Part shown: one piece after another, positions 11,069 to 42,200 of the stretch | Position numbering within the stretch: position 1 is the stretch's first letter | Layout: every line of letters begins with the position of its first letter | Assembly (NCBI GenBank): GCA_029891345.1 | Contig: CM057009.1 | Location: forward strand, 94,107,916-94,171,915 | Length of the DNA stretch: 64,000 nucleotides | Direction: 5' to 3' | From: Dryococelus australis | Taxonomy: Eukaryota; Arthropoda; Insecta; Phasmatodea; Phasmatidae | Program-made: the position numbers and the translations under genes | Notes under the pieces: generated by a model | Database searches by the model: none | The model's input: the letters and a program-made list of their open reading frames with translations, nothing else | Told to the model about the DNA's origin: nothing

Positions 11069-11723
11069 CAGAATGTTCTAAACATAGACATCTAAACTGA
11101 CGAAGGTGGTAGAGCGGCACAAGACAAACAACAATAACCTATTTGTGTGTAGTCCGATTCTAAACTGTGTAAGAGCTATACAGTTTTTTTTTTATCTTTT
11201 CCATTTTTGAACCTACTCTACATTACAATAAAAATGTCATAATAATGACAAAATAAATTGTCCCACAGAATTGACATTTGTACAAACGGTTCATGCCTAG
11301 TGTAGCCACTTTACCAAACATGCAGCGTGAATAACTATTAATGGTTTTGCAGAAATTATGTCTAGTTCAGACATTTGTCATGAGCTTATATATGTTATAA
11401 ATATAATAATTCACTGCATAACCTAATACCTGCCACTGGAAAAATTACCTTACTGTGTGCCAGTCATGACCAGACTTTGATGTAAAAATAGTAAATTGAT
11501 AGTTAGTGGGCAAAAGTTTCAATAGTTACTGACTTACTTTATAGCAATGCTACACAAATGGAAAGAGTTCAGCTCTCATAAATAATGGTAGTTGACCTTG
11601 AAATCCTACACAATTGCCTGATAGCAGCAGAGCATTGCGCATTTGCTTTGGTTCACTCATGTTATGAAGACTTAAGTGACGAAAATAAAATACAAGTAAT
11701 TGGCTTAATTTTTTATATGAAAG
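11069..11723. repeat. Left long terminal inverted repeat of the mariner-type element
   Basis: Inverted partner of 13,703-14,344. The tip begins CAGAATGTTCTAAAC after a TA. The two arms have drifted, with many small differences, so the insertion is old. Confidence 0.7.
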
Positions 11724-11869
11724 TATTCATAAAAATATGTTCAAAATATCTTCCCTGTCTCTGAACATACAACCTGCAACTTACCAGAAATGTACTTTGT
11801 AATGATTGGAAAGCAATAACATTAATTTGATAGCATTTTCAGCTTCTAATGGTTTGTGTCTAAGTTCTG

Positions 11870-13502
11870 CTTGAATTGCATAAACAATTCATTTATAGTT
11901 ACACCAAAAACCAATTGGGTTCAAAGCTAGTGAACACACAGTCCATGCTAGTTGTCTGCCACATCCAATCAATTTATTAGGAAATGTAGTGTTTTTAATG
12001 TTGACTCACTTGCATTAAATAAATGACATGGTGCACCATCATTCTGAAAACACAGGTTTCTACACAACTCCAGGTTCACATCATCTGCCAGTGGCTGAAT
12101 GTTGTGCTGAAGAAAATTGTTATGCCAGTAACTGTTTTATCTCTCTGGTAGTTCAAATGGTCCAATCAACTGATGGTCCATTATCCCCATCAAAAGTTCA
12201 CGCCAAACTTGTAGCATTGCAGTTAGATATACATAATTGGTATATTCGGGAAGTATTTCAATTGTCTATATTTCAGTAAAGGATAGTAAGTCATGTAATA
12301 TGTGAAAGGTCGTGGCAATGAAGTGTTTGTATTTCATATATTTTCATTTCTCCAAATTTGTTATTTTTCCTTTCCTCATTTCATCAGTAGTAACAGACAT
12401 CAACAACAGACATCATAGGACAATAGTGCATCTTTTTCTTTTCACTGGGTTAGTAAACTAAAAACATCGCCATGCAAGGCACAACATGGTGAAACGAGGA
12501 AAATAACAGAGGTCACCTTTAGCTGACGTGACTGACTGCTCGAAAACAATATGTTTTCAATGAGGAAACTTTCTACCAGTATATAAGGAAGTGCAACCTT
12601 TCTCGGGTATCACAACGGTTCGTCGCAGCACAATTGTTTGTCAGCTGTCAGTCGGACAGCCTGCAACGTGTGATCATGTGACTCACACCGACCAGCACCC
12701 ACAACTTTAACCTTCTTTTGTATTTCGGACATTTCAATTCAAATATCTATTAAATTAATTTTCCGTCGGTGCGAGGAGTCAATAGGGCACCAGGAGAGAA
12801 AAGTAACGTTTTTCTCTTGTCTTTGTAACTCTTAAAGTGAGAAATTTTGTTTTTTTTTGCTGCCACACTGTCTTGTTTTTTTTTGTTAGTCAGCTGTGAA
12901 TGTCAATAGTTTGTTTTGCAGAGACAATAAATCTCCAGTAAACATTTAACTAATTCTGTTATTTATTGGCAATCCTGGTATCAGCTAACTTTCATTATTA
13001 TGTATGTAGTCAAAGTCTCCAACTCACACTGAGCTAGTTCGTTGGTGTTTACTGAGAACTACGAGGTAACAGGACAGTAATCTGTTACAAACTTATGCTG
13101 GAAATGAGATTCTCTAATTTCATGAGTATTTTCAATAAACTATAAGTGAACATTATAAATGTTAAATATTCCACTTCTTTGGAAATGTAATTTATTCATC
13201 CACAAAGTACTATCAATAATGTTGGGGTCCCCCTATGACTGATGCAGCATTTCTTGGCAAAACCCCACCCTATTTTCATAATCCACTGAGAATAGAGACT
13301 GCAACCTTTGTATGCGATAGGAGTGGTAATTTCTGGCTTTCGATGTACAAAATACACTAGTTGTTGGGATACCAATACAACTGCTTATCTTCATTATGCT
13401 ATTAGAAGGTTCATGGTGCACATTTTCTAACACTTGGTCGACATGGTCTGGGTCAGGCCGTGGAATGCTTTCATGTCTCGAACCAGGCATTTGACCTATC
13501 AT
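11870..13502 (-). pseudogene. Broken mariner-type transposase, split by a large insertion
   Basis: The minus strand first shows a helix-turn-helix-like region in the frame 13,502-13,233 (NSIMKISSCIGIPTTSVF, then YRIQRLQSL), typical of insect mariner-type transposases. It is followed by a decayed IDSTLWMNKLHF stretch at the place of the usual W-T-D-E-A-F motif and by IRESHFQHKF near 13,100. The catalytic centre resumes at about 12,205-11,900 with DHQLIGPFELPER and then CFQNDGAPCH, the QDGAPPH-type second Asp motif. Stops and frame changes break it, and the LTR-like insertion at 12,301-13,076 separates the two halves. The first catalytic Asp appears replaced by Asn (WMNK for WTDE). It cannot encode an active enzyme. 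Confidence 0.75.
12301..13076 (+). mobile_element. Solo-LTR-like insertion inside the mariner-type transposase
   Basis: A fossil of about 776 bases. It begins TG and ends CA, has a TATATAAGG promoter-like box near 12,579 and AATAAA near 12,927, and is GC-richer than its surroundings. GTAAT stands at 12,295-12,299 and again at 13,077-13,081, consistent with a 5-base target duplication, although one extra A separates the left copy from the TG. It interrupts the transposase, which shows that it is an insertion. No coding region accompanies it, as expected for a solo LTR. The family is not recognisable. Confidence 0.45.
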
Positions 13503-13528
13503 AAACGTGTTGTGTGTGTTTATGACTA

Positions 13529-13702
13529 CAGTAAAACTCTGTTAAGATGTTTTTGAAGGGACTGAAAAAATAATGCTTATTAAACAGGAAAACTACTTAA
13601 AAGGGTCAATTTACACATGTGCCAATAGACAAAGTGCAAAATGATTCAACTTATTAAGCAGGAAAACTTCTTAAGTGGGAACTTCTTAACAGAGTTTCAC
13701 CT
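13529..13702. mobile_element. Small pogo/Tigger-type MITE
   Basis: This 174-base unit has inverted ends: CAGTAAAACTCTGTTAAG on the left and, on the opposite strand at the right, GGTGAAACTCTGTTAAG. A second internal pair around CTTATTAA(A/G)CAGGAAAAC follows. The CAGT(A/G)AAAC tip after TA is typical of pogo-like elements. It lies between the transposase start and the right inverted repeat of the larger element. Confidence 0.6.
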
Positions 13703-14344
13703 TTCAAAAATGAAATCAAACTAAATTACATGCATTTTATTTTTCTGCTCTTGTTCAATATTTTAAAATCAGTGAACCAAATCAAAGACTAATGCTGCAC
13801 CTGCTTCATTCAATAGTGCTGCACTTCAAGGTCAACATAATCATTTGATAGACCTGAACACTTTCCACATACACAGCATTGCTCTTAAGTCAGTTTGTAA
13901 ATTACTACAAATACTGTATACTAACTACGTTTTCACCTTCAGTATAAAAATTTGCACATTACGTTTAGGACTAGTACTTATGTTTAAGCATAAAATAAGA
14001 TAGTTTCTCCAGTGGCAGGCATTAGGTTAAGTAATACATTACTATTTTTTGAACTTATCTAAACTCATGACACATATCTGGACAAGCCATAACTTCTCCA
14101 AAACCAATAGTATCTTTTATGTTGCTGTAATGACTGAAATGAATGGTATTTGGTAAAATGACTACACTAGTGACCGACCATTTTTACAAATGTCACTGCC
14201 CTAGGATAGTTACCTTCGTCACCATCATGAAATTCTTAGTGTAGTGTAAAGTAGGTCAAAAAAAAAACTCTTAACTGGTTCAAAATCAGACCACATATGC
14301 ATTGAACATTTTCAGTTTGGATGTTTGTGTTTGGGAACAGTCTT
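13703..14344. repeat. Right long terminal inverted repeat of the mariner-type element
   Basis: Inverted partner of 11,069-11,723. Read on the minus strand, the tip is AAGACTGTTCCCAAACAC, preceded by TA. A small MITE abuts its inner edge. Confidence 0.7.
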
Positions 14345-15279
14345 TATATTAAATGTGACAATAAAAATTATATAGTCTAATATAAATAACATTGCAGACA
14401 TTCTATAAAAATAATTAAGCACCATCGCTTAACAGATGCTCAGCAAAGATCCTGCCAAGCACCTCGAGCCCATTGCCACATCTGGCCACATGGAAGGTCA
14501 GAGTCTAAGTAAAGGTCATTTGTCAGCTGTGCCATGGGTGCAGCATACTGCATCTACTATTGATCCATACTGTCTAGAAAGTAATTTTGAAAAAAACAAT
14601 ACATTTTACCACAAATTAAAGCATAGCAAAACAAAAAACCATTTTATTACACACATTTAAGAGCTTAAATAGTTAAATTCTGAGTACGAGACACCACAGT
14701 ACACCTTGATTTAATAATTACAGAACAGGTAAATTGAAATGTTGAATATGACAGTGTAAATTGAAGCAATTACCTTCTAGTCATGAACCTTCAAGTTCTT
14801 GAAGATGTGTGTGAGAAAGTCCAAGCACTTATACTACAGTGAGCCACACAATAGAAATAGTATTCGTTATAGAATTCAGCACATTAAAAAATAATATTGT
14901 AAATGGCACTCTACAGAGTTGTAGCAATCTTCCCCATAATACAAAACTGCGTATTAGTGTTTTTACATGCTCTAAATATTCAATTAGGATTTTATTTATT
15001 GTTACAGAGTTCAGTTACGTGCTTTTGATTAACTGATGACCTTATCATGCGTGATGTGAGTATAATTCCACTCCTGTGGGTTTACAAATTTGTAAAGGCC
15101 GTCTACAGTATAATCAGCTTGTAAAATCTCCTTTCCAGAATAAAGCTTTTAAATTTATTTAAATCTCTCTGCAGCACTTAAAATTACACAATTTATTTTA
15201 GGTACCACTGAGACAGTTTCTAACAAGCAGCACAGAGCATGCCATGTTAACATTTACTTATGCACACAGCCTTTAAGGG
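14345..15279. other. Intronic AT-rich stretch, nothing recognised
   Basis: MON2 intron sequence between the mariner-type element and the SINE. The open plus frames at 14,436-14,660 and 14,839-15,036 carry no motif I recognise. Confidence 0.5.
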
Positions 15280-15535
15280 GGAAAGGGGGGGAGAATGAAG
15301 AGGTTAGAGCTGCTTTTAACATTGAGGTCTTAAGAGCAAATGTTGGTGAAGTGAAGTGAAATAGAGCAGCGCTGGAATACAAGGATGGGGGAATCAGAAA
15401 ACCTGCCGATCAGCAGCATGACCCAACACAATTTCCACGTGCAAAAATTCAGGAACAAATTCGCCAGGAATCAAACCCGGTTTGCTATGGTGGGAAGTGA
15501 GCACTCTAGCCACTGCGCCATTGTAGCTCCTGGAG
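15280..15535 (-). repeat. tRNA-derived SINE, copy 1
   Basis: On the minus strand a tRNA-like head carries an A-box-like TGGCTAGAGTGCT and a B-box GGGTTTGATTCC. It is followed by a non-tRNA body shared with the copy at 56,525-56,785: TTTTTGCA(C/T)GTGG(A/G)A, GGTTTTCT, then AAGACCT(C/T/G)(A/G)ATGTTAA. The head with RNA polymerase III boxes and a shared body define a SINE family. The 131-residue plus frame across it is only its antisense. Confidence 0.85.
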
Positions 15536-16349
15536 GTGGTACGGAGGGACACACTCCATATAGTAGCAGGCTACATTGCCACATCTCCTATTGTCAGCCA
15601 ATTTGTTTTAACCAAGTGTTTTCCCACTGCATTCCATGCATGTTTTGCTTATACAAATACACAAACACACTTGTAAATGCAGTGTTGATGAAGAGTGAAA
15701 TTAAGAAAATTAAATCCATTATAAAGGTTGATCAGAAAGCAAACACCCAACTATGGGAGGCAATTCCTTATGAAAAATAAAGTCGAAAATATAAAGGACA
15801 CCATATACCTAAACGTAACAATAACCCCTTATCATATTATCCCAAGTATATTGGCATTTTTATGTGGCACATTATTATCATCCCAAGTTAACTGGGTGAA
15901 AAAACATGTATCAATTAATATTTACGCGATATATCATGACGAAATTTCATGTGTGTTTACTAGCAGTGGGATCAGGCTGTAATATACAAGGATTTCTAGA
16001 ACCAGATTCATTTTGAGGTCACCAGATGTCGGAGCAAGTGCAATGCAGAAGATAGCCTACGTAGCAGGCTCTTGCTTTAGATTGTAGCTTCGCTGCACAT
16101 TTGTAAAAATACATCCGAATGTGTACTGACTGTGCATAGATAAAAAGGAGTCATGTAAGTAGTAAGCAAGAGATGTAGATGTTTCACTAACAGACCTGTA
16201 ATCTTCCGCAAGCCGAGAGCTTACTCATGTCTCCCGAATGGCTAACTTCAGCAGTCCTGTTATTCTTCCTTAATGTCTCTTCCAAATAGCCAACTGTGTG
16301 GTCATTCTCTACCATTCGTGAAGAATAGGTTAATGAAAAATATACGATT

Positions 16350-17990
16350 GTAACAGTTCAAAATCAGTGATTCAGACATCGAAGAAAGCGAAGTAAATGA
16401 TCTTGATATATCAGGATCCGATAGTAACAATTATAACAACATTTCTAGCTCAGAAGAATGAGATAGCTGTCCGAATATGGCGTGAGATAAACTGCAGTAT
16501 GCCAAACATCACTCCACCGAGATACCTATTTACAGATAAGCCTGGAGTAATCAATGTAAATTCTGACAATTTTCTTGATTATTTTCACCTGTTTATTAAT
16601 ACTGACTTGGCTGAACTCATAGCTACAGAAACCAACCATTTTGCATCACAATATATTCAAACCCATCCACAGACAAAATGGAAGTCAACAACAAAAGAAG
16701 AAATACATGTTTTTCTTGCATTAGTTGTGGATCAAAGCATTGAAATGAAGCTTACATATAAAATGTACTGGGATAAGGACCAAATATTTGGCACACCATT
16801 TTTCAGAAAAACTATGAAATTTCGCAGATTTATTCAACTGAAACTATTTCTTCACTTCATTAACAATGAGTCATATGATGCAGCCATTCATACAAACCCT
16901 CAATCCCTAAACTGAACAAGATATGGCCAATATATCCATTTTCAAAAAAAATTTCTGAACTTTAAGCTCCAGAAAGAGATGTAACAGTATATGAAAGTCT
17001 TACGTTATTCAAGCGATGTCTTGGATGGAAACAGTACTTACCTATCAAGATGGTACAGTTCGGAATAAAAATATTCATGTTATATGAATCATCAGACGGA
17101 TATGTATATTCATTTGTAATATACACTGGATGGGGAACAAACTTTGATGACGAATACAAAAGCCAATGTCGTTGCTAGTAGTAATGTCATTTGTGAAACC
17201 TCTTCTTGGAAAAAGCTATTTATTGTGTCATTATTGGCAACTTTTATACTTCATTGCAACTGGCAGATATGTTGATATCACACTAAACAGACACATATTG
17301 GACTGTCAAACAACCAGAAAAGAACTGCCACCAGAATTGCATAAATGAAAATTGCAAAAAGACAGTGTCATGGCTTTCCAAGGAGGGAAAGTTATGGTAA
17401 TGAAATGGATGGGCAAGAAAGTCAGAATTTTGTTTACAACCTATAATCCTGAAATGAAATGTGTAACAATAAATAGACAACAGCATATGAAACCACAAGT
17501 TGTATTACATTACAACCATTAATGGGAGGTGTGGACATTGTTGACTAGTGCATAGCAGATTATGCAGTATGTACTAAGAGAGGAAAAAAAATACTGTAAG
17601 AAGATATTTTTTCATTTATGGACCTAGTAATATGGAATTCATTTCTGCTGTATACAAGTATACAAAGATTTAAAGGAAACAGTCACATTTGGAGTACAAA
17701 GAGGCTATAGTCAAAAATCTCACTGACAATTTTCACATGCAACAATGTATCCAGGGCAAGGCAGTCCGGAAAATCAGTTAATCCATTGAGAATAAATGCA
17801 CAACACTTTCTAGCTATGATTCGGTCAACTGAAAAGAAAAGCAATCCAACATGCCAGTGTGCAATGTGTAGCAGGGTGACGGATGCACAAGGAAAAAAAA
17901 ATACAGCATGAAACATGTACATGTGTAAAGATTGTGGTGTATCACTTTGTGTTGTACTGTGTTTCAGAGTTTACTATACAAAAGCAGACA
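16350..17990 (+). pseudogene. Dead piggyBac transposase
   Basis: DNA transposon gene of the DDE_Tnp_1_7 family. The acidic N-terminus (SDSDIEESEVNDLDISGSDS) begins near 16,365. The longest open part (16,397-16,915) holds the conserved core, including YMYWDKDQIFGTPFF-like and FRRFIQLKLFLHF stretches (the actual start is TYKMYWDKDQ). Beyond the first stop the similarity continues in broken frames: FKRCLGWKQYLPIKMVQFG corresponds to the family's D-E-x(n)-F-K-G-R...Y-x-P-x-K-P block, but the catalytic Asp is Tyr here. A cysteine-rich C-terminal domain (CAMC..., CKDCGVSLC) ends near 17,990. TTAA-flanked terminal repeats were not found. It sits antisense in the last MON2 intron. Confidence 0.9.
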
Positions 17991-18199
17991 TTTAGGCAGA
18001 AATTTTATACAGCCTGAGTGAACAACAATTGTGAATAAATATTTACATACTTTAGTCTCATTATCTTGTTGCCTTTCTCCAATAACATTTTTTATATGTA
18101 TTGCACAAGGGATAGAAACAAACTGAATACATATGTAAAAAATACAAGTTGTATTTTTAGTGATGAATGGCATCATTGTTTTAAAATTATTTTTTGGTG

Positions 18200-18790
18200 T
18201 TTTTGTAAAGATTCCACTATTGTAATAATTTTATACAATTTACAAAGCTTACATGATAGTATTTTATGTTACGACTTATTCATTCTGACCACATTTACAA
18301 ATATAAATAAATTTTCACATGCTAGTTTAACACAAAAGAGTCAGGTTAATAAAATAGTGTGTAGCGAACATAAGTAATTTATTTATAATACTATATGTTC
18401 CAAAAGTAATTTAATGGATTTTTAGGCATATTTTAACTAAATCTGGCCAATTTGATAAATATATGTAATATTTTTACAAGCATATAAACACAGACAAGAA
18501 TACTTGGGTTAATAAGAAAGAATGCAGTGAACTTTACTATTTTGTTATAACAATTTTATGTGATTCAAATCTTATGTAATGAAATTTTATGTAAATATTT
18601 TCTAAACCTGGCATAATTTATGAATATATATACATAGTACTTTTAAGTGAATATAAACACAGATGAGTATACTCAGGGTAGTAAAACAGTGTGCACCGAA
18701 AATTAATTAAGGTTAGGAATGTAAATATTTATTTTTTACATGTGGTATGTTTATTTGCATACTGAAAATGGTATAATATAGCTAAATCTC
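18200..18790. repeat. Three diverged tandem repeats of about 165 bases
   Basis: A landmark of the type TCAGGTTAATAAAATAGTGTG occurs at about 18,341, as TTGGGTTAATAAG at 18,504 and as TCAGGGTAGTAAAACAGTGTG at 18,673, spaced 163 and 169 bases apart. The flanking parts of each unit (ATATAAACACAGA(C/T) and CTAAA.CTGGC) also recur. The units are AT-rich and lie just after the piggyBac remnant. They may be its 3' flank or a separate minisatellite. Confidence 0.6.
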
Positions 18791-21700
18791 ATTTTTGAAT
18801 AATTGTAAATTTTGACACATATTTCTCATCAAGCATACATTGCAGTAATGCTTCATGAGTAAGTACTGTGCTTTTGATCTTTTTTAATGATGGATTATCA
18901 TAATAAGTTTGCAAACTGCAAATTATTGTATCGGCATTGCAGTAAAAACTCAGTCAAATCATTTTTGCTCTGGGCCTGTGGGGAATACTATTCTGCTCAG
19001 CCACCAAGTGCTGCCAATGCTAAGGTACAGCACCAGGCGCCACGGTGTTGGATATGCCATGATAAACAGTACCACTAGCACAGAACATGCCCCAACAGAG
19101 TGACAACGGCTATAGGAAACGCGCCAATGAGGTAGGACCACAACAGGGGCCTTCCTTCTTTACCAATGTACCAGTCACAGCACCCCAGTAAAGGTAAATA
19201 ACCAGCCAGTTGCATAATAGAGACAAGTGAGTACGATAATTGATAATTTCTTGAGGGTAACTGTGTGTGTTTCAAATGTTACAAATGTTGCCTTGATTGA
19301 TACCACTACATAGCACAATTTTGTCCACGAAGAACTTGTAAAATTTTCAGATATCCATGGTACTCATGGTACTAAATTAATAGTAGTGCTCGCCACAATG
19401 AATGGCAAAAGTGATATCATTGGTGTTACTCTGCTTGAGATAAATTTTAGGGATGTTGAAATGTGTGTTCTCAGCTTAGTCTCAAAAGAAATCAGCGAAG
19501 ATGTTATTTTTGGAGTACCTTCGCTAATTGATCAGGAAGTAATCATAAGAATTTCTAGTGATAGGATACATTTCAACAAGCAAGTCAGATGTACTAGTTA
19601 CACAGACATGTAGAGGGTAACTTGCAGCTCGTAACCCTAGATGCCTTCGATCATGGTGTTCTGGCTGAATTTCATACCACCTTTGAAAACATCTTAAACG
19701 AGAGAAAAGACGTAATCCCACCATCTGACCTGCTTAACTGTACCAATGTTGCCAAACACGAGATCAAAACGATCCACAACAATCCACTCTGGACATGCCT
19801 TACAGATTACGAAGTATACCACCTGAACGTCACCAACCGCAAAATTGCGTAAATGAAACATGACGAATAATTGAGCCGTCAGAAAGCAGGTACAATTCAA
19901 CTATCACCTTAGCACTGAAAAAATATGGAGCATGGCAGATTTGTATTGATTTTAGACCCATAAATCAAATAAGAGGGTGTGCCCCACTCTCATTTATCAG
20001 TGTAAACACAGCCCTCAACATAGTTTACACGGCAAAAATTTTTGTTATCTTATGACCTGAAAAGTGGATTTTGGCAGATTCCAGTAAAACCGGAAGATAG
20101 GCACTAAACGGCTTTTACGGCAACAGACTGTCGCCGATACCAGTTCTGTGGCACACCCTTTGGGCTTAAATGTGCACTGTCTACTTTTCAGAGCATTGGT
20201 GAAAGTCCCTGACAGAGTAATTGGTGACTTCGTAATGGCCTAATTAGATTATGTGGTCATGTGGTCAAAAACATGGGAAGTCCATCTGCGACACCAAGCT
20301 ATTATTTTGGAATGACTAGTGATCAATGGCCTAACCTGTGCCAATCACAGGTGTAGCATAAGGAAAATTAGCATTAAATATCTTGGCCACCTTGTCGACG
20401 GGGAAGGGAACTGCCCCACGCCATAGTAATTAGCCACCATTCAAGAGTATCTCGTGCATACCACGTGGAAGCACTTACGAAAATTCTTTGGCCTAATAAA
20501 TTGGCTCAGACAGTATGTGCATGATTTTTCAGTAGTTACAACGCCGCTGACTGAAATACTCTCATCCGCTAAGAAGTACAAGTGGGATGCCAACAAGCAA
20601 AATGCATTTGAGGAGGTGAAATATCATTTCTCACAGTGCCACACCCTCACATGCATTGACACAACATGCCACCTGTATTTACATACTGACGCCAGTCAAG
20701 AAGGCATCGGTGCGGTGTTCTTCCAGTATAGCAACAGTCAAGAGCACTCTGTTATTGACTATTCCAGTGCCAAACTTGGCAATGCTGAAAAGTGCTATGA
20801 TTTACACGAACAAGAATATTTGGTGATCATCTGGGTCATAAAACGGTACCGCATTCATCTGGAGTACAGGCATTTCATGCTGAGGACAGATAAACGTTGC
20901 TTGTTGTGGCTGCACAAAATTCATGAGGTTCATAGCAAATTAACGAGATGGTCAATGTTGCTACAAAATTTTGACTTTGTTGTCAAACATGTGTCCGGCA
21001 AAGACAATCAGTTGGCCGACGCCTAGTCATGTTCCCCGAACGAAAGGGAAACAGTAGTAGGTGAAGAGAAGTCTGAGACCATCGTATCTCCAGAAAATAA
21101 TATAACAACTCCAGTAGTGCTACAACAAATTGCAGTGAAACAACCACAGCAAAACCCGCTAGCATGAAAGTGCACAGATGACCTCTACGTGTACATGTTA
21201 AACCAACAACAAATGTCAGCGAAGGTAATAAAAAATAAAGGCCCAGTGAGAACAAGAAATAGAAGAGGGCCGGAAAGTGATTGACAACCCCCTCGTGACA
21301 CATAACAACAGCCAGTCAGGAGTTTGATGGTGATTCTACATGCCACCAGGGGCATTCACTACTGTCATTTGCATTGCCCATAGCAACGTACTGTCCGTTC
21401 CCCCAGGAGCAACATACAGTGCATAACATTGCAGCGTCATTTTTGTGGCCTGGCCTTACAAAGCAAGTGAGGGAATACGTACGCAAGTGTCATGCCTGCA
21501 GTGTTCACAAAACACGTAGGTCAGATGGAAAAGCCCAACAACAGCTAAGGCTACCACAATGTCCTTTTGAAGCTATAGCCCTAGACCTCTTGGGTCCATA
21601 TCCAAGCTCATCGGACGGCAAACGTTTTCTTTCAGTGGTGACCAATTTTTTTACATGATGGTGCAAACTGTATGCACTCCCAAGAGTGTGCATACTACAC

Positions 21701-23224
21701 ATTACTGCCACCCTAAGGAAGAAGGTTTTTCCCAGCTGGGGTTACTCAAAAACACTAGTTAGTGAAAATTCCACCCAGTTTCCCAAACCGTGTTGTAGAG
21801 GTTTGTGCACCGAGTGGTATGTTGAACACCACACCACTGACATCACGTGCCTTCCAACCCAATTAAATGGCAGAACCAGGAGCTAAAGCAAAGTTGCACC
21901 TGAGAGTAGGTGAAGATCACAAATCATGGGCCAAGCACATTCTACACATAGCTTTTTGTTTACGTAACCGCACAAATGAGGCCACAGGAAAATATCCTCC
22001 TGAATTGTTGAATGGCATGGGCCTAGCATTCCCAGGGAAGTTTGCCTGCCGTGTACCAGACTTGGACCCAGATGCTGCAGACTCTGAGGTAAGGGAAAGG
22101 GAGAGGTGGCAGCATCATTACGAAGTGCACAAAAACAAAAAAACGCTACATCCAAAAATGGCTTCCTCAAACCAAACGACCAACTAAGCCTTTGTTACCA
22201 GGTGACTATTTTTACATGCGTGCGCACCAATTGTCAACAGCCACACAGGGTTTTTGTGCGGGACTTGCACCCAAATGGACCGGGCCACACAAGGTCCTGG
22301 AAAAGTTCAGTCCAACGTCGCATCTAGTGTAAACTTGGCCGAGGAAGAGGTGTAAGGTTCACAGGGATGAAATCCGCACTGCTTCTAACCCCAATGACGT
22401 TGATGTAACACGTCCAGACATCATCCCAGAAGATGTAAGTGAAAAACAAAATGACAGAAAACCAGGTAGTGCTGCTGAGGCAGAAGTGAGTGACTTTTTT
22501 TTTGTCTAACATAACCCACAGCAACACCCGAGGTGGAAGTCTGGTGTCATCACGAGGGCAGTCACCCTTAGATTTTTGTGGCTTCCCAGCTGCCACGCTT
22601 CCTACTGCTGTGCCTGCCACAACAGTTCAGTGGTTGGCATCAGAGGACATCAATGACGTGTAGAGAGGGGAAACGTGACCCCTTGGCTTCTGTGGCTTTC
22701 CAGCCACCACACAGCAGACTGCCCCGCTTGACACTGCTGCAGCTCAGCGGTCAGTGCCAGAGCTCATCAACGTCCTGTGGGGGGAAGTGCCACTTCCTGC
22801 ACCCAGTAACGAGTGGCAACACACCCTGCAAGGAGATGGGAGCAGCTCTTCCGCCACATCCCCCTGTTAGTCGGTGTATCACTGCCCAGCACACTCACAA
22901 CAAAGCTGCGCGACCCCTCTGCTTCAGGCACTCAGCTTGCACCAGCCAGAGCTCGGACATGCCAACTCACATTGCCGCCACAAGCCCTCCTGCAGGCCCT
23001 ACTTCACATACCCCTACAGCCACTTCGGATGCCCTACGTCCTTGATGCCATCGGCTACCACACGAGACGTCTCACGAGGTAGGGAACAGGCCATTCCCTA
23101 CTTACAGGCTGAGGCAACGCCCCTTGCGTAGCCCCACCTTCAGCTGCACTTCAGCATAGCTACAAGATGTCGCAGCATCGAGCCATTGGTTTCACATGAG
23201 CCGTGGTGGCGGGGAGGGGGGATT

Positions 23225-24475: not shown

Positions 24476-25229
24476 TGAACTCTCTCTCAATTACTTTCAT
24501 TAACATGTGCTGCGAGGGGACTGCTACGTGGCTGTTGACCTGTTACTGCCCTGAGAATGAGTCAACACATGCTCACCCATGAATAGATGAGCTGGTGCCC
24601 TTGGGAAGTACCTACAACTTTTCTAAAATTCTAGCCATTAAGCAGGGTTTCTCTCAAATCCAGCATACTCTGCCCCTTGCTAGCAGCTAAGCCACGTCAA
24701 TTTAAATAGTTTTTATTTGCAGCAACATATCTTTGTCTGCTCGCAGTCTTGTCAGTGAATCAAAGAGGTCTAATATGGTAATCTAAGCAATATCCCTGCT
24801 TTTAACATCCTGTTCTTCAGATAGTAACGTAGAAGCATTAATATGTTGATGGTGCCAAGCCCAGCAAATATTGAGCGCTGAGAATTTCTGTATACCTCAA
24901 GTCATTCAGCTACTGTTTCATCATGAAACCACTGTCCGTATTTCATCATAGTAACATGTCCCGTGTGTGTTGTGGATTGCCTACCTGCTAGGCCACTCAA
25001 TATCGCTTGTGGAATGATGTCGCCACGGATTTCTCACAAACAGTTCACCTGAGAGTGTTCGGACACAACCTTTTTTTTAATGTAGACTTGCTGATTAATA
25101 ACTTCATGCAATAAATTGCTTCCAATTGTTTGTTAACACGATTCATGCAAACACAGGATTGCAACCCCCATTTCCCCAATTTAAGGGGATGCTATTACCA
25201 ACCATGTTTCTCGAGGTGAACGATCTCCA

Positions 25230-25279
25230 TTCATTGTACTTAACATACCTTAGGGACCTGGCCCACTCCAAGAAAACAC
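25230..25279. repeat. 50-base direct repeat, second copy (displaced)
   Basis: One mismatch from 24,392-24,441, 838 bases away, without the neighbouring LTR sequence on either side. The roughly 750 bases between (24,476-25,229) match nothing else I recognise in the window. Confidence 0.9.
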
Positions 25280-25489
25280 TATTTGCCAATTAGTCTTTTT
25301 AAGATCAGCAGCATTTTGTCATCATCTTGTGTTTGTGTGCACCGGGAAGTTATATTTTATCTACTGTAATATTTTCAATACCTGAGAAATGTAAAAGCAA
25401 TAGACTTGTGCACAACAAGCTAGAGAAATTGTTAAAACTGTAATTCAGTTTTGCTATACAGAAAAGGAACATGGTAATGTGATGATTCC

Positions 25490-26470: not shown

Positions 26471-26471
<1 letters not shown>

Positions 26472-26518
<47 letters not shown>

Positions 26519-30700: not shown

Positions 30701-32106
30701 CCTAAATTTTTGGCTAAGCTGAGTACCAGCAATGATATCACTTTTGCCATTCAGTGTGGCGAGCTCTACGCTTAAGTTAGTACCACGAATATCTGAAAAT
30801 TTTACAAGTTCTTTGCGGACAAAATTGTGCGATGCCGTGGTATCAATCAAGGTAACAGTTGTAACATTTGAAACACACAAAGGTACCTTCAAGAGTTTAT
30901 AAATGGTCGTACTCACTTGTCCCTAGTAGGCGACTGGCTGGTTATTCACTTTTTCTGGGGGCGCTGTGACTGGCACTCTGGTAGAGTAGGAAGGCCCCTG
31001 TTGTGGTCCTACCCTGTTGGCACGTTTCCCATAGCCGTTGTCACTTTGTTAGAGCACATTCTGTACTAGAGATATTGTTCATCACAGCATATCCAACACC
31101 ATGGCGCCTGGCGCTGAACCTCGGCGTTGGCAGCACACTGTGGCTGAGCAGACACGGCACTTAGACCACTGTTTCACGGCGCAATTCCAGAGTGGTCTTT
31201 CTGCATGTGACCAGAGGCATGGGCAGGCTGGTCACCTGGGTTGTTACACCCTTGGCATGGTGCATTTGTGTGTTTGGTGGAACTTTCACTGTTTTTCAAC
31301 ATAACCAATCACTTTCATATTGCCAGTAATACCACTTAACTTCCTGTACAACCAAATCTAATCAACTTCAAACTTGATCTTCTTAAGGGAAAACATCACA
31401 GAAATACCAAAAATCCTATAATAGCAGTCTGACTACTTACACCTTCATTAACAGGAAAGGTCTTCCAGCAGATAATGTCCAGAGAATCAATCTCACTTAT
31501 GTACTTTGGAGTCAGTTACTTTGAATTACTAGCTCTTCCTAAGAAACAAAATTCTAACAAACCACTTCCCGCTTTGGCAGTAATTCCTTGAAATCTAAAT
31601 TGAAACCTGAAAGACAACAATATGTAACTTTCTTCTGCATCAACAAACCCAATTACTCCATTCTGTATTGAGTTATTAACATCCTTTTAAATATGATGAA
31701 CATTACGATATACCTTCCTGGGATAATATCTGGAAATACGATTCTGCCAATGTTTCATTCTGATGTCTCTCCTCTAATGACACCACGCAAAGTGAATAAA
31801 TACAGAACGCAACATACTTATATACACACAAAACCCATAGATAACTACAACACGAAACACTATGAGCAAAAAATACAAGTCTGCGACCTTCAAATTCTAA
31901 CATCCAGTGGTGCTACTGTTCTAAAAATAGACTTGGCAAGCTTTAAACTGGGGGGCACTCACTTATACACATAGCAGGAGCTCCCTTAGGCTCGTCTAAA
32001 ATACTACAACGGGCCACACAACATGGTGTTCATTTTGAGGTTCTGACAGATTCCAACTTGCAACTTCATATATTCATAACTTTTTAACTAATGAACGTTA
32101 ATAAAA

Positions 32107-32281
<175 letters not shown>

Positions 32282-32299
32282 TTTTTTTTTAATTAGCAC

Positions 32300-33538
32300 A
32301 TTTACACAGTTCATAAACTGAGCACGTGGGTATTCTGGAGTGGGCCAGGTCCCTAAGATACGTTAAGTACTGTGCAATAAAATTAAGATGTGGTCCTTCT
32401 CAAAGTGTATATTGATGGAACAAGGCTATATTCACACTGTAATACAATTTGACCCTCGTCTGAAGTGGGCATGGCATTTAGGCCTGCCATCGGTCGATGC
32501 AGTAGAAAGTACTTTTAGCATGTGAAAACTTAAAGGCATTACACTCTCCAGGGCCGCAAGTCTGACGGAGGGGATACGTATGAGTGAGGTGCAAAAATAA
32601 ATAAAATGGTTCTGGTATACTAAGACTTACTATTGCAGTGAAGATGATTGGTTCAAGTTGATGAAGGCTTCCACGATGCACGACACACGTACATATTCGT
32701 TGGCCTGCTGCTCAAGACTAAAGATGGTGGCAGAGTCATCCGGTTACCTTGTCAAGATCATCCGCCAGCTTCATAAGGGGAAATTAGTTTACACATATAT
32801 TTGGCAAAATGTATAAAGCAAAACCCTCAGAAATACAAAATAAGAACTGGAAGAATTAATAGAGTCTTTCCGACATCTAAAGTTGATGATTTACTGTTGA
32901 GAATACTCATTTCACATGTGTCGGAAAAAATAATAATCACGTGAACAAGCCGGAATGGGCCGGTAAAGCATACAGAAAATCATTAGAAAATAATACAACA
33001 CATTTCACATAAGCACTGACAGTCAAAAAGAAAAATATTAAATTATAAGCAAAATTTAATATTACGTGAAAGAATTAAAGTTTGGGTACATAGCATGACG
33101 AATGCCAGAACTGCCGAGATTGCCTACAAAACCTTTTAACAGGACTCAAGAACAAACAGATATGACATAAATACTAGAAAATAATAATATATTTTATGAG
33201 CATCTCAAGTCTGTGTTTAGTATTCAAACATAAACCACGTGGCTTTGCACTTTTAGGCTAATAATGCATCACTTATGGGATGGAAAAGGGAGATAACATT
33301 TTCCCTTATATAAATTAGTCTCTGCTTTCAGGGGTACTGATCAAATTAGCACAATAAACATATTAGGGTGAGTTAACTCTTCGTACAATGGGTCAAACGG
33401 GTTGTGACGAGTTTCACTGATCTGTTTCTGCATGAACAAGCGTCGTGACCTGTACACAGAACACATGGTAATGCGTGGCTGTGCACGAGCACAGCAGCAG
33501 TGGGCTACATCCTGAGCAGGACAGTGAGGGCAATGTCG
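32300..33538 (-). repeat. 5' LTR of gypsy copy B
   Basis: Matches 26,669-27,776 in the same orientation and 23,225-24,475 inverted. A TTTATATAA box lies near 33,310. The inner border is approximate, because a microsatellite starts at once. Confidence 0.85.
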
Positions 33539-33764
33539 GAGTGATGCAAATAAGTTTACTCCATTCTATATCCTATAAATTGTGAGATATGAAAACAGCC
33601 ATTTATTTCTCAACAATTTGGTATTTATAAATGTTTCACTCTAGCCATGCTTTTCCAAGCAAGAAAAATGCAGTGACTTAAAATTTTTAGTAAACCTACT
33701 ACCTGTGTACCCTTCAGAAAATTTGTTTAAATCTTAAGAGTATGATTTTAGTATTACCCTTAGC

Positions 33765-35511
33765 TAGAGATGGGCCGTTCAATACTTTGATACCTCAATA
33801 CCTCTTGATAGTGGGCAGTATCAAAAGTATCGAGTATCGCTACGTGCATGTCAATACTTTTATTTGATACTTTTTATCGACACGTGTATATGGCTTGGAT
33901 ACTTGGTCCACCATATTCCTTATTGTCACGAAGCGGCACCGCTTATTTTGTTTTTGGCAGTTTACTAGTTTCTGAAAGCCCATGTAGTGTCGTATTTATT
34001 TAACGATTCAGGTAATTATTTTGTATCGATTGTAGAGAAACATCTAGTAAGGATTGCAATAGAACAACATGTATTCAGGAGTTGTGAATAGGAATTACGA
34101 ACTGAAGTCTGTGCGTATTGTAAATAACGTGTTTTGAAAGTGTATATTGTAAATAACGTATTTTGAAACGGTTATTAGAATGTTTTAAATGTACATAGCC
34201 TAAAAAAACACCATTTCAACTTGTTTTGCAATGCAAAACTACTAACATGTGTATTGTATGGAAAATGAACGTCTCCAAAAATATTTACATCCCAAATGTG
34301 TTTAATATTCAAATTACCGTACAAACTAAATATTTATCACGTTTTCTTTAGGTGAGGTTAAATCTAGGCAGGTTATTGAATGTTTCTTTCATATGAGCAA
34401 ATTTTCAACACATCCACTAAAACAATAATATCTAATTAAAAATTATACAGGCCATGTTCAAATTGACAAGTTTCGTTATTTAGTTACTTTGAAAATTCAT
34501 TATTTGGTAGGTATCGATTTGGACATCCTTGACAGTCACGTGTTTAGCAGTTGCGGCAACTCATAATTAATAGTGCAAATTTTTTTTATCTTAATTTAAT
34601 GCTTAAAACAGACGTAATATTTCTGCAATCATCACTGGAATATTATGAATACATTAATAAATAAGAAACTGATAAATTATGAAATAACGACTTGATGTTA
34701 AACTAATGCATCTCCCAACCCCATCCAATCCACTGGCAATAAAATGAATGGAGGCCCAGCAGTATGACTTAGCCATAACTAAAACAAGGTAGGTTGGAAT
34801 GGTAACCTACATTGATCATAGCATTGATTATTTACACTCTGTTTTATTCATAGACAGAGCAGCTGTGGCGCAAGGATACATTGTGGCCATGCTACGTTTC
34901 TAGAACTGTCAAAATTTATGCTAGTACTACATATTTTTTTACGTGCCATTTGTGTTTACAACCAGTATTTCATATTTATTGTACGTGTTTTGTGTGTACA
35001 CAATCTGAGAAAATGACCAATGCAAAACAACAAACAGAATAATAAATTTATCTTGCTTACAGTAGCAGAAGAATTGCTATTGTTTTTGATCGGGCGATAA
35101 ACTATTCCCACATTTCCCCTATCTGACTTAATCCAGAAAAAAAAATTAATGCTTGTTTTTCTAAATAAAAATTATTAAGCTTTCTTAGTTCGAAAATTGA
35201 CATGCTTGATGTGCTTTTTTAGTATCATATTAATATTTATCATTTTTTAACACTTGACAGGCCTACTACTAAGTTATATAAATTTCAAATTTGTTTCCAT
35301 CATCTGTAGTATACTCTTGCGTGATTTTTCTTATATTTTAAAATTTATAATAAATTTGGTCGAGAACAATGAAAACATAGTTTACAAAAATTTGATTGCA
35401 TTATTTAATTTTTTTTACTCGAGGGTATCGAGTATCTAAAGTATCGAGGGTATTGAGCTGAAAACTGTATTGAGTATAGAGTATTGAAAACATGGTATCA
35501 TCCCACCCCTA
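33765..35511. mobile_element. hAT-like non-autonomous element
   Basis: The left end TAGAGATGGGC and the right end, read inverted, TAGGGGTGGGA are typical of hAT elements. The flanking 8-mers CCCTTAGC (33,757-33,764) and CTCTTAAC (35,512-35,519) agree at six of eight positions, as for a decayed hAT target duplication. Subterminal regions carry repeated GTATCGAG/TATCGA motifs at both ends, another hAT habit. An internal tandem pair of GTAAATAACGT units lies near 34,120-34,170. I see no transposase frame in its 1.75 kb. Its right end is about 20 bases from the MON2 splice donor at 35,540. Confidence 0.65.
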
Positions 35512-35540
35512 CTCTTAACTACTAATTCATTGATATTTAC

Positions 35541-35623
35541 CTTTCTGTTTTGGAGCTTTTTTCAGTGAAACAACCAATGTAGCAATCGCCTTCAGTACGA
35601 AAGATATTTCAGACAGCCTGTTT
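35541..35623 (-). CDS. MON2: MON2 exon (second from last), 83 bases
   Basis: A short exon too small to stand out as an open frame. It encodes RNRLSEISFVLKAIATLVV then SLKKAPKQK, matching the MON2 block that ends FVLKA..TL..SLKK before the TW motif of the last exon. The acceptor is a strong polypyrimidine tract ending TTTTTCAG at 35,625-35,624 and the donor is AAAG|GTAAAT at 35,540-35,539. Its first base completes the Arg codon begun in 36,432-36,654 and its last G begins the codon completed in the last exon. The downstream 24.8-kb intron starts here, and a hAT-like element ends only about 20 bases beyond the donor. Confidence 0.93.
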
Positions 35624-36431
35624 CTGAAAAAAAAACAATATAAATTATGTTTTAGAATTGGCAGTGTGTGTGTAACGGTTGCTGATTAGTAAGGAATTGG
35701 AATAACAATTACTAACATATGTGAAAAATGTATATTATTGTGTTAAACGGTTTAAAAAATTATAATTTTGGATTCAGAATGAATAAAAGTTTTATTTCTG
35801 TGTAATGCACATAGTTCATAGCAAACACTAAACGTTATACATGCAGAGCTCTTTATCCCACGCGAAATGAGATGAGGAATACGCTATATTGTTATTTTCA
35901 ATAGCAGGAAAATTATTGGCAAAGCCAGAAATTTCCTCGGAGAAAAATTACCTCACCATACAATAAAAGGCATCATACTTTATGGTAATGATTAATTTTT
36001 TATTAGAACTGAAGTTTTATTAATAACTTAAATCCATATTGATGAGAGCCTTAGTGGCAAAGGAAAGGGTTACAATGCCAATATCACCACATTGTTATGC
36101 TACTGAAAGCCATTGCATGTGTTTCACAGACAAATAGCTATTAAGGAAATACATATGTATAAATTTTTTATGTTGTGATAAAATAAAGTTTAAGTTTTTA
36201 ATTTTATGCTGTGAATATAATGCACAGAAAGGCTAAAAATGACAACATCCAGATTACAATAGGTTCCTAATCACTTGGCTATGAACTTTGTGCTCATTAA
36301 GTAAATAATGTTGAAGGATGGACTTAAACCATCACCAACATGGCCTCCTTGTCACAAAACTTGCATAGTGTCAATGGTTATCCAGGATCCAAATACAGCA
36401 AAAAAACATTTAGCCAAGAGTTGGTGGGTAC
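35624..36431 (-). other. MON2: Short MON2 intron
   Basis: An 808-base intron between two coding exons, with GTACCC donor and TTTTTCAG acceptor. It is AT-rich, with no mobile element recognised. The plus frame at 36,308-36,565 is antisense to the exon and intron and carries no motif. Confidence 0.85.
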
Positions 36432-36654
36432 CTAGGAAGTGGACATTTTCCACTCAGACGCTGATCTTGCACATACTGATGAAGAACTTCCTGAAACCTG
36501 TGCAGAAGTGCTGTAACAGCCAGTCGCCCAGCCAAGATGTCTTCAACGCCTCCAAGTTCTCCTGATTCCATTCCGTGCAGTAAGGAAAACTGAAGTAGGG
36601 TCTCAAAGCATGTCTTCGCAAATTCTTCTCTAAGTTTGTGATCACATTCATAAT
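36432..36654 (-). CDS. MON2: MON2 exon (third from last)
   Basis: This 223-base exon encodes [17 protein letters not shown] near its start and [18 protein letters not shown] at its end. Both match conserved blocks of the MON2 C-terminal helical domain (in vertebrates I recall CFETLLQFS and a [12 protein letters not shown]-like block). The acceptor is TTATTTCTTAG at 36,656-36,655 and the donor is CCTAG|GTACCC at 36,431-36,430. Entry and exit phases fit the exons on both sides. The frame is uninterrupted over 73 codons, with no sign of decay. The central part ([18 protein letters not shown]) is the variable segment I would expect between two helices. Confidence 0.95.
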
Positions 36655-37160
36655 CTAAGAAATAAATCCATTAATAGTGTTTGTCGGCATAACTATTTCT
36701 CAGCTTTTTTGAAATTACATTCATGAAATCACAAAAAAATTAAGAGATTATAACTGCATACCATGCTTACTATACATATAATATTAAAAAATACAAATTA
36801 TAACTTATCTCTATAAATACCAACTCATTTTATTATAACTGAAAAACAGATGCACCTAATATTTGGTTGACATTTTTCAAGAATAACATACATTTGAACT
36901 GGCTATACAAATATTCCCTAAGTACGATTTAAAAATTATCAAAAATGTTGATAACTTACAAAATAATTAACAATTAATGAGGGAATATTTTGATCTTAAC
37001 TGGGTGGCTAAAGATAGAAAATTTTGCTACCTAGCTTTCTATAAAAATAGATACATATCTTGAAGCACAAATTAAATAGGTCGCATATACAGGCTGTATC
37101 TAAATTAAACAAACTTTGGCAGCAGGTAAATCACAAAAAACAAAGATGAAATTGTATATA

Positions 37161-37577
37161 TGACCTATGGTCTAAAGTGAATCATAAGGGTGGTACACAT
37201 CTTTGAAGTTGTACATGCAGCACTAGTTTATAACAAATATTGGAGAAAATATTCAAGATGGAACGCTGAGTGGCTGAATAATGTGTAATGGAACAAAGAT
37301 CTGTAAACATCATAACACCTGTCTGTCAATGTCATAAAATTATTTAATGGAAACAATTACAGTTACAACCCTTATTTAGACTTAATCTCGATGATCCTGT
37401 AGCAAACCTGTCATTTTAAAGACTAATTAGTCATATCATCATGTCACAATTAACTATACATTATATAGATACCCAGTATTCAGTCTTTATAATTTCAGTA
37501 TTTTAAATAAACTAGTGCTTCAGGTCCAAATTTAAAGATGTGTACTGCCCTTACAATGCACTTCAGACCATAGGTTG
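37161..37577. mobile_element. 417-base MITE inside the left inverted repeat
   Basis: The inverted ends run TGACCTATGGTCTAAAGTG on the left and, inverted at the right, CAACCTATGGTCTGAAGTG. Similarity extends about 60 bases, through GTACACATCTTT. TA flanks both ends exactly (37,159-37,160 and 37,578-37,579). The right arm of the surrounding transposon lacks this segment, which shows directly that it was inserted. Confidence 0.9.
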
Positions 37578-38255
37578 TACGCAAGCACATGTACACAAAC
37601 ATATATCTAAAACATAAAGACAACTTTTGATAGGTTATTACTGAGGTGAAAATAGAAAGATTGAAATAGGAAATCCATGGATCAGGTCAAATACCAAGTG
37701 CAGTAGATGCTTCCAAAGTTTGTGAAAAATTATCATTTATTGACATATTTTTTTTGGGAAACTGCTTGTGGGACACAAACAAAGTAATGGTTAATAATTA
37801 TTTAAACCATAATCATTAATAAAGTGAATGTCATGTACATGTAAACCACTCCCATCATGTTGAAAGGGGGTTTAGCCATATTCTGTAAAAAATGTATGTT
37901 ACAGAAAAAATTTTGTATTTTTGACTAGAGATTATGATATTCCAGAAAAATTGGCAACATAAATGTATTTAGCAAAAACTGTCCAACGCTCGCCCTTTTC
38001 GAGTAATAATTACACGTTTGATTCCACGGAGAAGTGTTATTGCCTGCTAGTTGGACAACTAGTAATGACTGTACACCACACCATACTGGAATAAGTTTCC
38101 CACAACTGTGTGTGTGGTCTTACATAAGTGATTTGCATAAATAACAGATTGGTGGGATTTTCTCACTGTTAGGAATACAGAATTTAAAAGAAGAAGAAGA
38201 GAAAAAGAAGAAGTTCTTGCACTACCAGTTCAATGATGTACCACCATAAGCAACT

Positions 38256-39298
38256 TTACAACAAGTGTTCAAAATGGCAGCCACCAACCTCGTTGCAACA
38301 ATTCATTTGGCACATGAAACACAGGCGTACCCTTTCAAAAACTTTGGTGTATCTTGAATCTTGTTACAGGCAGCCATAACCCTGGTTAGCAGATCGTCCT
38401 TCGACTCAATGGGTGTGTCATACACCAAAGCCTTGCTGAACCACCACAGGAAAAAGTCAGGCAGATTAAGGTCAGGAGAGCAAGCTGGCCACGAAACACA
38501 CCTACCTCTTCCAATCAACTGTGCTGGAAATTCCACGTTAAGGTGACCCCATACAGTTCTTGTGGAATATAGAGGGGCATTATCATGTTGAAGCCACATA
38601 CATTACCAGACCACAAGAGGCTCATTCTCGAGCAAATCTGGCAATGTAAATTGCAGGAATTGACAGTACGTGTGCCCAGTCAATTGTTGTGGCAAGTACA
38701 GCCCAATGAGATGATCACCCACAATTCCCCCCCAGATGTTTACAGAAAATTTGTGCTGGTTGACTGTGATGGCGGTTGCAAGAGGATTGGTGTTGTCCCA
38801 CATGTGATTGTTCCTGCCGTTAAAATTAACTTCTTTCGCGAATGTTGCTTCTTCAGTAAACAATATGATGGAAGTAAAATGAGGAACTACTGTGCACGGT
38901 TGCAGAAACCATTATAAAAAATCACATAGAGGTTCCAATCAGTTGGTCCCAATGCCTGCACCTTTCACATGTGGTAGGCACGCAGCAGCTGCTTGTACAT
39001 AACATGTCATACATTGGAATGGGACACACCCACTCTGTGTGCAATAGCATGGGTGTGTATTAACCGGTTTTTCCTCCACAACATTCAGTACTTCTTCCAC
39101 ATTAGGTATACGGATATGCCTTGAGTGACCAGATCCACCTTGTACCATAATCGTGCCTGTTTCATGTAGTCTCTGAGTAACAGTTGTGAAGGTTTCGTGA
39201 TGAGGTTACCACAGTGCTGGAAACCTCTCATGATACAATCGTACAGCAGCTTGTGCATTACCTTTAACTTCACCATAAAAGAGAAAAATGTCTGTCAT
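38256..39298 (-). pseudogene. Nearly full-length but frameshifted DD41D transposase
   Basis: The minus strand from ATG at 39,298 reads YGEVKGNAQAAVRLYHERFP, the DUF4817-type N-terminal domain of insect transposases, then a helix-turn-helix region (IPNVEEVLNVVEEKP). The catalytic domain has FTEEATF (first Asp replaced by Glu), NIWGGIVGDHLIGLYLPQQL, then QHDNAP with the second Asp and PDFFLW with the third. Counting residues, 41 separate the second and third Asp. It ends near GGCHFEHLL at 38,256, the usual family terminus. The total of about 347 codons is close to a full gene, but it is spread over several frames (38,303-38,599, 38,603-38,863, 38,939-39,148 and the start), so it is inactive. 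Confidence 0.88.
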
Positions 39299-42200
39299 TT
39301 TGAGTTCGTATGCATCGCCATGTTGACTTGTAATAGAATGCATGCAAACTTACAATGAAGTATGGGTTTTTATTATACAGTCCTCTCCTCTGTTAAGGAG
39401 GGGAACTACAGTACTCATAATGAGAGTGGGGGGAAAACATGACACACCAATATCCCATGCCTTTTAGACACACCATTAGACAAAACAAGTTACAATTTAG
39501 TACCACCACAAACCACCTGTATGTAATGTCTACACCAATACGGTGCAGTGCACAGACAGCCATTATTAACTGCCTACCTGGCAGGCAGTAACACTTCCAT
39601 GTAAAATTAAACATGATATTTTACTCTAAAAGGGCGAAAGTTAGACCATTTTTGCAAAAGAAATTTATATTGCTTAAATTGCCAGCATTTCATAATCTGT
39701 AGTAAAAAATAGGAAATTTTTCCTGCAGCTTACTTTTCTTGCAGAAATAAGAGTGGCAACATGATGGGGTGGATTGCATGTACTCGACATTCACTTTATT
39801 AATGATTACGGTTTAAAAAATTAGTAACCATTAATTTGTTTCTATCCCACAAGCAGTTTATTAAATATGATAATAAATAATAATTTTTATCTAATTTCGG
39901 AAGCATTTACCACTCTTACTATTTTTGACCTGGGCCATGGGTTGCCTATCTCAATATTTCCATTTCCACCTCAGGAATAACTTATCAAAATTTGCCAGTA
40001 TGTTTAAGATATGTGGTGTGTGTGCATTTTCACCTTTTTCCTTGATTTAGCGGCTGCTGAAGTTTGTCAGTACAATTTAGATACACCCTGAAATGGATTC
40101 TTGTGATGAAATTAAAGAATGAAAAGATAAAATTTGAAAAAAAATATATTTTAATATTTTATTAACCTAAAAATGCCTTTTACCAAGTAAAAATTATAAT
40201 GCATAGAAGATGTTAATAAATAATAAAGATAATCAGCAGCTGCACAATCTTCACAAAAAATATTACAACCAAAATTGAACTTTTGGTATAGAATGGTTAA
40301 TTCCTAAGGGTTGTATGGATGAAAAATGCTTAAGGTAAAATATTAGTGTCCGTGTTACAAAAACACACTCAGTAAAATTTTCTTCCAGGGGACCAAGTGC
40401 GTAAGAGTTTTACTGATCAAAACTCTCTGTTGCAGACAATACATGAGTAAGTTCACTCATAACATGTCACAAAAAAAAATAAAACTGGTAAGTCCTACAC
40501 ATACCTCCTGCCAAGACAAAAGTGAGGTCTCAACCAAAACACATATTTACGAGAAACAGAAAGAAAAAGAGAAAAAATGTGAAGCATATTGCATTCATAC
40601 TACTATTATACTTGTTGAATGGGAAGCCTGTATAGTTTGTGCACTGGATGGTACAGCTCTCCTTTTGGGTGCATGTCGGCAACCTTTAACCTTTACAACA
40701 CCATGGCCAAGCACCATCCTTGACGAGGTACACAATCTTCTCCAGCTAGGATAAGGTCCCGCACGTTGAATCTGGGCTGTTGGATACCCCACTTCCCTCA
40801 AGGCTGCAGATGCTGGAGATAATCTATGTACCATATTCTCCAGAAATGTGTTGCAAGGCTATACACAATTTCCCATCATTTGGAGAGGCAGCAGGTTTGG
40901 TCTGTTTCTTGTGGCTCCAGTACAGCCACAATTTATGCACCAATCAATATGAGACCAGGGGTTAAGGCAGATACATCATGATGGTCAGATGGCATTGGTG
41001 TTAAAGGTCTTGAGTTCAAAACAGCTTCAACTCGTGTACAGTGTTATTATCTCCTCCAGAGTTAGTATCTGTTCTCCCCAAATAACTCGACACAGATGTT
41101 TTGCCAATTTCTATGTAGCCTTCTACAATCCACCTTGATGAGAACTGGCAGGTGCCAGGAAATGGAAATCAACGGAATGAGATGATGCAAAATTTTCCAA
41201 GGACTGTGATTTAAGCAGATTCTGGAATGTCCGAGTTAGCTGTCTGGGGGCACCTACAAAATTGGTCCCACAGTCCTCTTCATGACACAAAACATGACAG
41301 GGCTGCAATGAAGCTTTCAGTAGTCAAGTCAGACACAGCTTCAAAGTGACTAGCGTTTGTGACTAAACATATGAAGATTGAGATGTAAGCCTTCTAGATA
41401 GGACAGCGATGGAAGCCATTCAAACAAATTGGAATGGGTCCTACATAGTCACTGTACATAGTCTGTACACTCAAAGGCTCGGGCAGGAGATACTCTGGTG
41501 GTAGATCTCTTATGAGAGGTGGATTATTGCTAGACTTGGAGTAAAAAAACCAAACACTTTAAAGACTCTTGTGTGAATCAGGCATTGAGCGGACAGAATC
41601 CAAAACTCTTGATATACAAGTGATTGTAAGAGTTGGGGTGCAGCATGAATGTATTTGGAATGTTAATGATCAAAAAGAGAACTAAAAACAACAGGGTGAT
41701 CATTAGGCAACAGAACTGGGTGTTAAGCACCACAATTTAGATCTGCATTGTTAAATAGGCCACCTGCCCGGAGCACACAGTGATCATTTACAAAAGGAGA
41801 AAGATGTTTTAACCGAGTATAACATGACTGTTTCTGTTTGGTAGGAAGCAGATCATCCTCGAAGAAGGCCTGTGGCACACATTTACATACAGCATACACA
41901 GACTGTTTCAGTTCTAGTGATGACAATGGTCCACTGCCATGGTCTTGTTTCCGAAGTCACTCCATAAATCGCAAGTCATAAGCAATTATCTGAATCAGCT
42001 GAGACCATGTAGGTGGTTGCTGCAATATTTGCAATTATGCTAGCAGATCTTGTGTTGTCAACAATGTTACAAGAGGAAACTTCAATTCAGGAACATCTGC
42101 AAGATTCTGAGACACGAAAGACTGAGGCTATGTGTGTGGTGAGTCAACCAGCCACTGAGGTCCATGCCACCACAAACTATATGACACGAGCTCTTGTGTG

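Follow-up and report, generated by a model that had tools for sequence, protein, structure and literature searches.

The window, the whole 64,000-nucleotide stretch of the Dryococelus australis genome analysed here (G000:C17:94107916-94171915; assembly of 3.415 Gb in 646 contigs), contains two places, A and B, at which long inverted arms surround a single decayed transposase. Aligned arm against arm with BLAST, the arms of A are 67% identical over 567 columns (E 3.7e-36) and those of B are 76% identical over 487 columns (E 6.3e-96), far beyond chance in both cases.

Element A, including two later inserts, occupies positions 11069..14344, with its transposase remains on the minus strand and a TA outside both ends. 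The left terminal inverted repeat (TIR) arm (11069..11733, plus strand) has a gradual inner limit at ~640-665 bp, and the right arm (minus strand) spans 13701..14344. The ends were fixed by an alignment of 22 arms, comprising the two in the window and 20 from fetched loci, some rows of which are damaged at the tip. Column agreement rises from 0.43-0.54 to 0.75-0.86 at CAGAATGTTCC (window 11069), holds for ~400 columns, stays mostly at 0.67-0.83 to ~640 columns, and then drops to 0.60-0.68. From this profile we read the A TIR as ~640 bp. Without its inserts the element measures ~2.23 kb.

The transposase of A survives as two decayed minus-strand stretches that give weak tblastn matches to related frames. 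One (11865..12209) covers the region of the second and third catalytic residues, while the other (13088..13529, with an ORF at 13233-13502) covers the N-terminal to middle region. In three-frame translation the third catalytic residue reads Gly, and 125 bases lie between the second and third codons (41 codons plus 2 bases), so the spacing appears compatible with 41 residues.

Between these two stretches lies an 878-bp repeat (12210..13087) with TG..CA ends, flanked left and right by AACT. We take it for a solo LTR; 39 other scored places, of 2650 candidates, carry it at 87-88% identity, extending from at most 18 bases from its start to at most 2 from its end. The second insert, a stretch of ~170 bp (13530..13700), is MITE-like, has inverted ends (GTAAAACTCTGTTAA .. 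TTAACAGAGTTTCAC), and sits in the inner right side of A. Neither insert is matched in any of the 20 other A loci. The first is bridged in eight of them (six within ~10 bases and two within ~50) and the second in two; at the loci that do not bridge, matches are absent on one or both sides of the inserts.

Element B (37594..40018, minus strand) is 2425 bp long, with TA outside its left end and TG outside its right. It consists of a left TIR arm of ~490 bp (37594..38085, plus strand), a right arm of ~480-490 bp (39540..40018, minus strand), and a decayed transposase (38249..39300, minus strand). Its ends are drawn from 29 aligned arms and from an empty site described below. Arm agreement jumps from 0.41-0.49 to 0.83 at window ~37594, stays at 0.83-0.93 for ~480-490 columns, and falls to ~0.6 where the insides of left and right arms differ, which points to a TIR of ~490 bp. 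The initial annotation had drawn the boundaries at 11,069-14,344 and 37,090-40,090, with TIRs of 550-650 bases and a core of ~2.3-2.6 kb once insertions are removed. Its ends for A coincide with ours, as does its TIR range (~640 bp), but its outer limits for B enclose sequence of another element and its TIR range is too long for B (~490 bp).

The B transposase has a helix-turn-helix part followed by a DDE domain and is interrupted by stops and frame changes. Its first catalytic Asp reads Glu, and 41 residues separate the second from the third Asp, just as had been noted for this copy beforehand. The second-third spacing is 41 residues in all seven aligned rows, of which five have Asp at the third position.

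The sequence flanking B is here assigned to a third element, C. Its left part (37090..37593) holds the whole left arm, the middle, and the inner half of the right arm, with TA outside the left end; the outer part of the right arm (40019..40090) is cut off by B and has AA, not TA, outside. Unbroken, C measures 576 bp with inverted arms of ~200 bp, and this unbroken form occurs elsewhere in the genome. A 576-bp query representing the joined empty site gave 3051 candidates, and 18 of the 39 other scored places cross the join; ten of these 18 run from at most 21 bases from the start to at most 7 from the end (71-75% identity). One further locus (L076) aligns weakly with C positions 325-576, also across the join. 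The piece 40012-40095 matches 36 other genome places, all of them more than 350 kb away from every B match on the list of 41. Because empty-site places elsewhere run across the join, we place the insertion of B in the right arm of C, and the composite annotation of this place is corrected to B nested in C. C is a high-copy element without room for a transposase.

We also considered whether 37163-37575 is a MITE within the outer repeat. This was rejected: three solo loci (L075, L077, and L078) are unbroken from C position 1 to 298, 261, and 264, respectively, and so run through the left part of that interval (window 37163), and the 576-bp query that includes it crosses the join at 18 of 39 places. 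A shorter empty-site query lacking this interval found nothing that spans the join, in keeping with the assignment of the interval to C. In four of 20 B loci, 23-27 bases of the C tip match the tips of the loci themselves, so that the ends of B and C may be distantly related.

A and B had been taken for two copies of one mariner-type family with long TIRs. The shared plan stands, but a single family does not: no blastn match links an A arm to a B arm at E 1e-3, and an nhmmer profile of the A arm has no significant match outside A copies. A relationship of A to B through their arms was rejected on these two results, and we treat the elements as members of two different families, both old and decayed.

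Further copies of both were found in the genome, as that annotation had suggested looking for. The A arm has at least 45 matches including itself, the 44 others being 65-81% identical (40 of 148 candidates scored). The B arm has at least 42 including itself (40 of 413 candidates scored); 40 of the 41 others are 76-82% identical, and the last match covers just 40 bases, at 90% identity. Inverted arm matches longer than 40 bases were present in both orientations at 11 of the 20 B loci and seven of the 20 A loci fetched. Transposase pieces between B arms occur in either genome orientation, and shorter copies have both arms close together (L032 and L033 for B; L042 and L049 for A). The earlier reading as mariner-type DD41D elements with long TIRs as a family trait is supported. 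The recurrence of the arms also bears on the possibility, set beforehand as the refuting case, that the arms are unrelated repeats that flank transposase relics by chance at these two loci. It was true in part of the sequence outside B, now assigned to element C; for the A and B arms, which recur with transposase remains at many places, it is refuted and can be given practically no weight. Judged by general rather than dedicated methods, none of the loci examined showed a recognisable copy with short TIRs.

A 98-residue piece of the B transposase gave 13,225 candidates, and all 150 that were scored match, at 42-69% identity apart from the piece itself. We took 15 loci beyond the window, a chosen rather than random set and few of the 13,225: seven best matches (L060-L066, where L061 and L063 coincide with the B loci already fetched as L037 and L031) and eight whose open frames span 228-303 residues (L067-L074). 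Of the 15, 14 have a recognisable long arm on one or both sides, and none was seen at L068. The longest open frame listed has 303 residues, and no intact full-length transposase was present among the loci read.

Domain searches gave few matches. Pfam DUF4817 was detected in L071 (E 3e-8) and in the B copy L061 (E 6e-5; 23.0 bits, just above the cut-off of 22.6), with nothing in the six window pieces and nothing at relevant scores in five other frames. Against PDB, L067 weakly matches Mos1 (E 0.008) and Sleeping Beauty (E 0.011). The NCBIfam IS630 model matches one of four frames, L071, weakly and below its cut-off (E 5e-6). On the catalytic motifs read and these weak matches of L071 and L067, the enzymes are identified as DDE/D transposases of the IS630-Tc1-mariner superfamily. 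A search for relatives in viral contigs yielded two pattern matches, none of them confirmed.

Elements of this kind have been described in aphids. According to Bouallegue et al. 2017 (PMC5490172), the aphid LTIR-like elements have a DD40-41D motif, one transposase, and short arm-bearing derivatives, and are close to rosa; Apismar5.1 and Apismar5.2 are 2307 and 2423 bp long with TIRs of 466 and 460 bp, and the authors treat the DD41D members as the same as Lsra (Zhang et al. 2016). B resembles them in its TIR of ~490 bp (above 460 bp), its 41-residue spacing, and its length of 2425 bp (above 2.3 kb). A has a longer TIR (~640 bp), is slightly short without its inserts (~2.23 kb), and has a spacing that is compatible only. 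Both stick insect elements differ from the aphid ones in host and in representing several families, and the likeness is one of published descriptions. The statement that canonical mariners have short TIRs is sound, though long-TIR DD40-41D elements were already published in that study.

Other comparisons are looser. The rosa (Crmar2-like) DD41D elements, as summarised in the same source (PMC5490172), share with B a spacing of 41 residues from the second to the third catalytic Asp, but are ~1.3 kb long with TIRs of 28-32 bp, whereas the TIRs of A and B extend over hundreds of bp. Visitor is DD41D by name (DD41D/VS; PMC8472432), and its likeness to A and B is by name only. Minos and Tec share long TIRs with A and B (several hundred bp and ~700 bp, respectively) but are given as DD34E (PMC7325037) and belong to other clades. 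A literature search on DD41D, Lsra, and long TIRs, with most subscription journals outside its scope, returned no paper whose title concerns LTIR families from so large a genome. As far as these sources extend, A and B do not represent a new transposon class. What appears to be new, judged from the arm comparisons below, is the homology of B arms to the arms of a family with a transposase just 42-54% identical to that of B. The long-TIR DD41D plan is found in several families within this one large genome.

Based on these observations, A and B are very probably dead copies of two IS630-Tc1-mariner cut-and-paste families of the long-TIR DD40-41D kind, LTIR-like, a placement set by description. 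Target-site (TA) duplication and cut-and-paste transposition by a DDE transposase are traits of the superfamily. Each family would once have had a single transposase gene between two inverted arms, ~640 bp long in A and ~490 bp in B and, for B at least, nearly perfect. Its product, combining a DUF4817-type helix-turn-helix part with a DDE domain, would have bound predicted sites in the arms, cut the ends, and inserted the element at TA; both the cut-and-paste reaction and the arm binding sites are inferred. Copies that have arms but lack a transposase were presumably moved in trans.

The arms carry some record of this history. In B, the two arms of a single element resemble one another just as closely as arms taken from separate elements do (0.770 for 8 pairs, including a low pair, L033, at 0.614, versus 0.781 for 398 pairs), which is the pattern expected of one source with near-perfect arms, a burst, and then separate decay of each arm. 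The A arms are more alike within one element than between elements (0.738 over 5 pairs versus 0.667 over 226), a pattern that we read as several source lines.

Homology of the B arm extends beyond its own family. The nhmmer profile of the B arm matches L074 twice, over columns 52-465 (E 3.8e-16) and columns 2-271 (E 1.2e-12), and L073 over columns 54-282 (E 1.8e-15); the best shuffled decoy reached E 0.57. The transposases of L073 and L074 are only 42-54% identical to that of B (tblastn pieces); the arm is homologous along most of its length between elements with very different transposases. Because this homology spans such families, the long arm of B is inherited and older than their split.

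Exceptionally long TIRs are also described for mariner lineages in Rhodnius prolixus, where they occur in Rpmar49 and Rpmar17 (PMC4678618). In Rpmar49 the long TIR is reported to result from a rearrangement that takes in coding sequence. L067 looks alike in origin: its arms (632-1029 and 2094-2527; 435 columns, 79%) overlap the 3' end of its transposase, as if one end had been duplicated in inverted orientation to form the other. The long arms of A and B might likewise be recent, derived from a short-TIR mariner that lost one of its ends to an inverted duplicate of the opposite one. However, the arms of A and B lie outside the recognised coding parts, and the match of B arms to those of another family (E 4e-16) largely refutes a recent origin for B; overall we consider such an origin improbable.

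The arms of both elements are still predicted to fold together. With the loop included, the B arms fold at -419 kcal/mol, compared with -178 to -199 when the right arm is shuffled, and the A arms at -402 compared with -259 to -270 (8 shuffles each), so double-stranded RNA from the arms is possible. Such RNA is described as a silencing route for Tc1-type elements in a review (PMC3878927), and the arms might have been kept mainly since read-through transcripts fold in this way, shaping silencing or self-limitation. Yet any long inverted repeat folds like this, and colinear arm sequence between families suits protein-binding or promoter sites at least equally; we regard folding as an unlikely main reason for the long arms, if slightly less so than a recent rearrangement.

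The L074 and L070 arms match each other in an inner block in blastn (E 1.6e-10 and 4.7e-11, with two other pairings at 4e-6 and 6e-4), and an L071 arm matches C with a score of 52, where 60 shuffles reached 26 at most. The B profile alone is not significant against C (E 0.13), L071 (0.83), L072 (1.1), or L070 (6.9). The multi-family alignment is suggestive of a shared arm plan, in which we discern by eye three candidate blocks in colinear arrangement: a site resembling CCGACAAACTTCG on the outer side, TTGCAACT..CTAGGACCCACCG on the inner side, and a third block, GGGG..TTGCCACCC. On our reading these were kept between families whose transposases are only ~40-55% identical. One tentative interpretation, less likely to be right than wrong, is that the whole long arm is a conserved working module of the DD41D clade, holding several transposase or host-factor sites in register. 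If this is true, the long TIRs of the clade would reflect an ancient multi-site transpososome and not chance or RNA silencing. That families have arm sequence in common makes the purpose of long TIRs testable.

L071 differs in the apparent extent of its arms, which align over 811 columns (83%) into the end of the stretch. TIRs of more than 800 bp are doubtful here, as a clade-like terminus lies ~345 bp into the arm. The first 174 arm bases match window 24916-25087, and L071 may therefore be a composite. That window interval matches the outer part of the L071 arm at 83% over 177 columns, suggesting another repeat there. A 66-base segment of the window (15749-15814) also matches the L070 right arm stretch (77%, E 1e-8).
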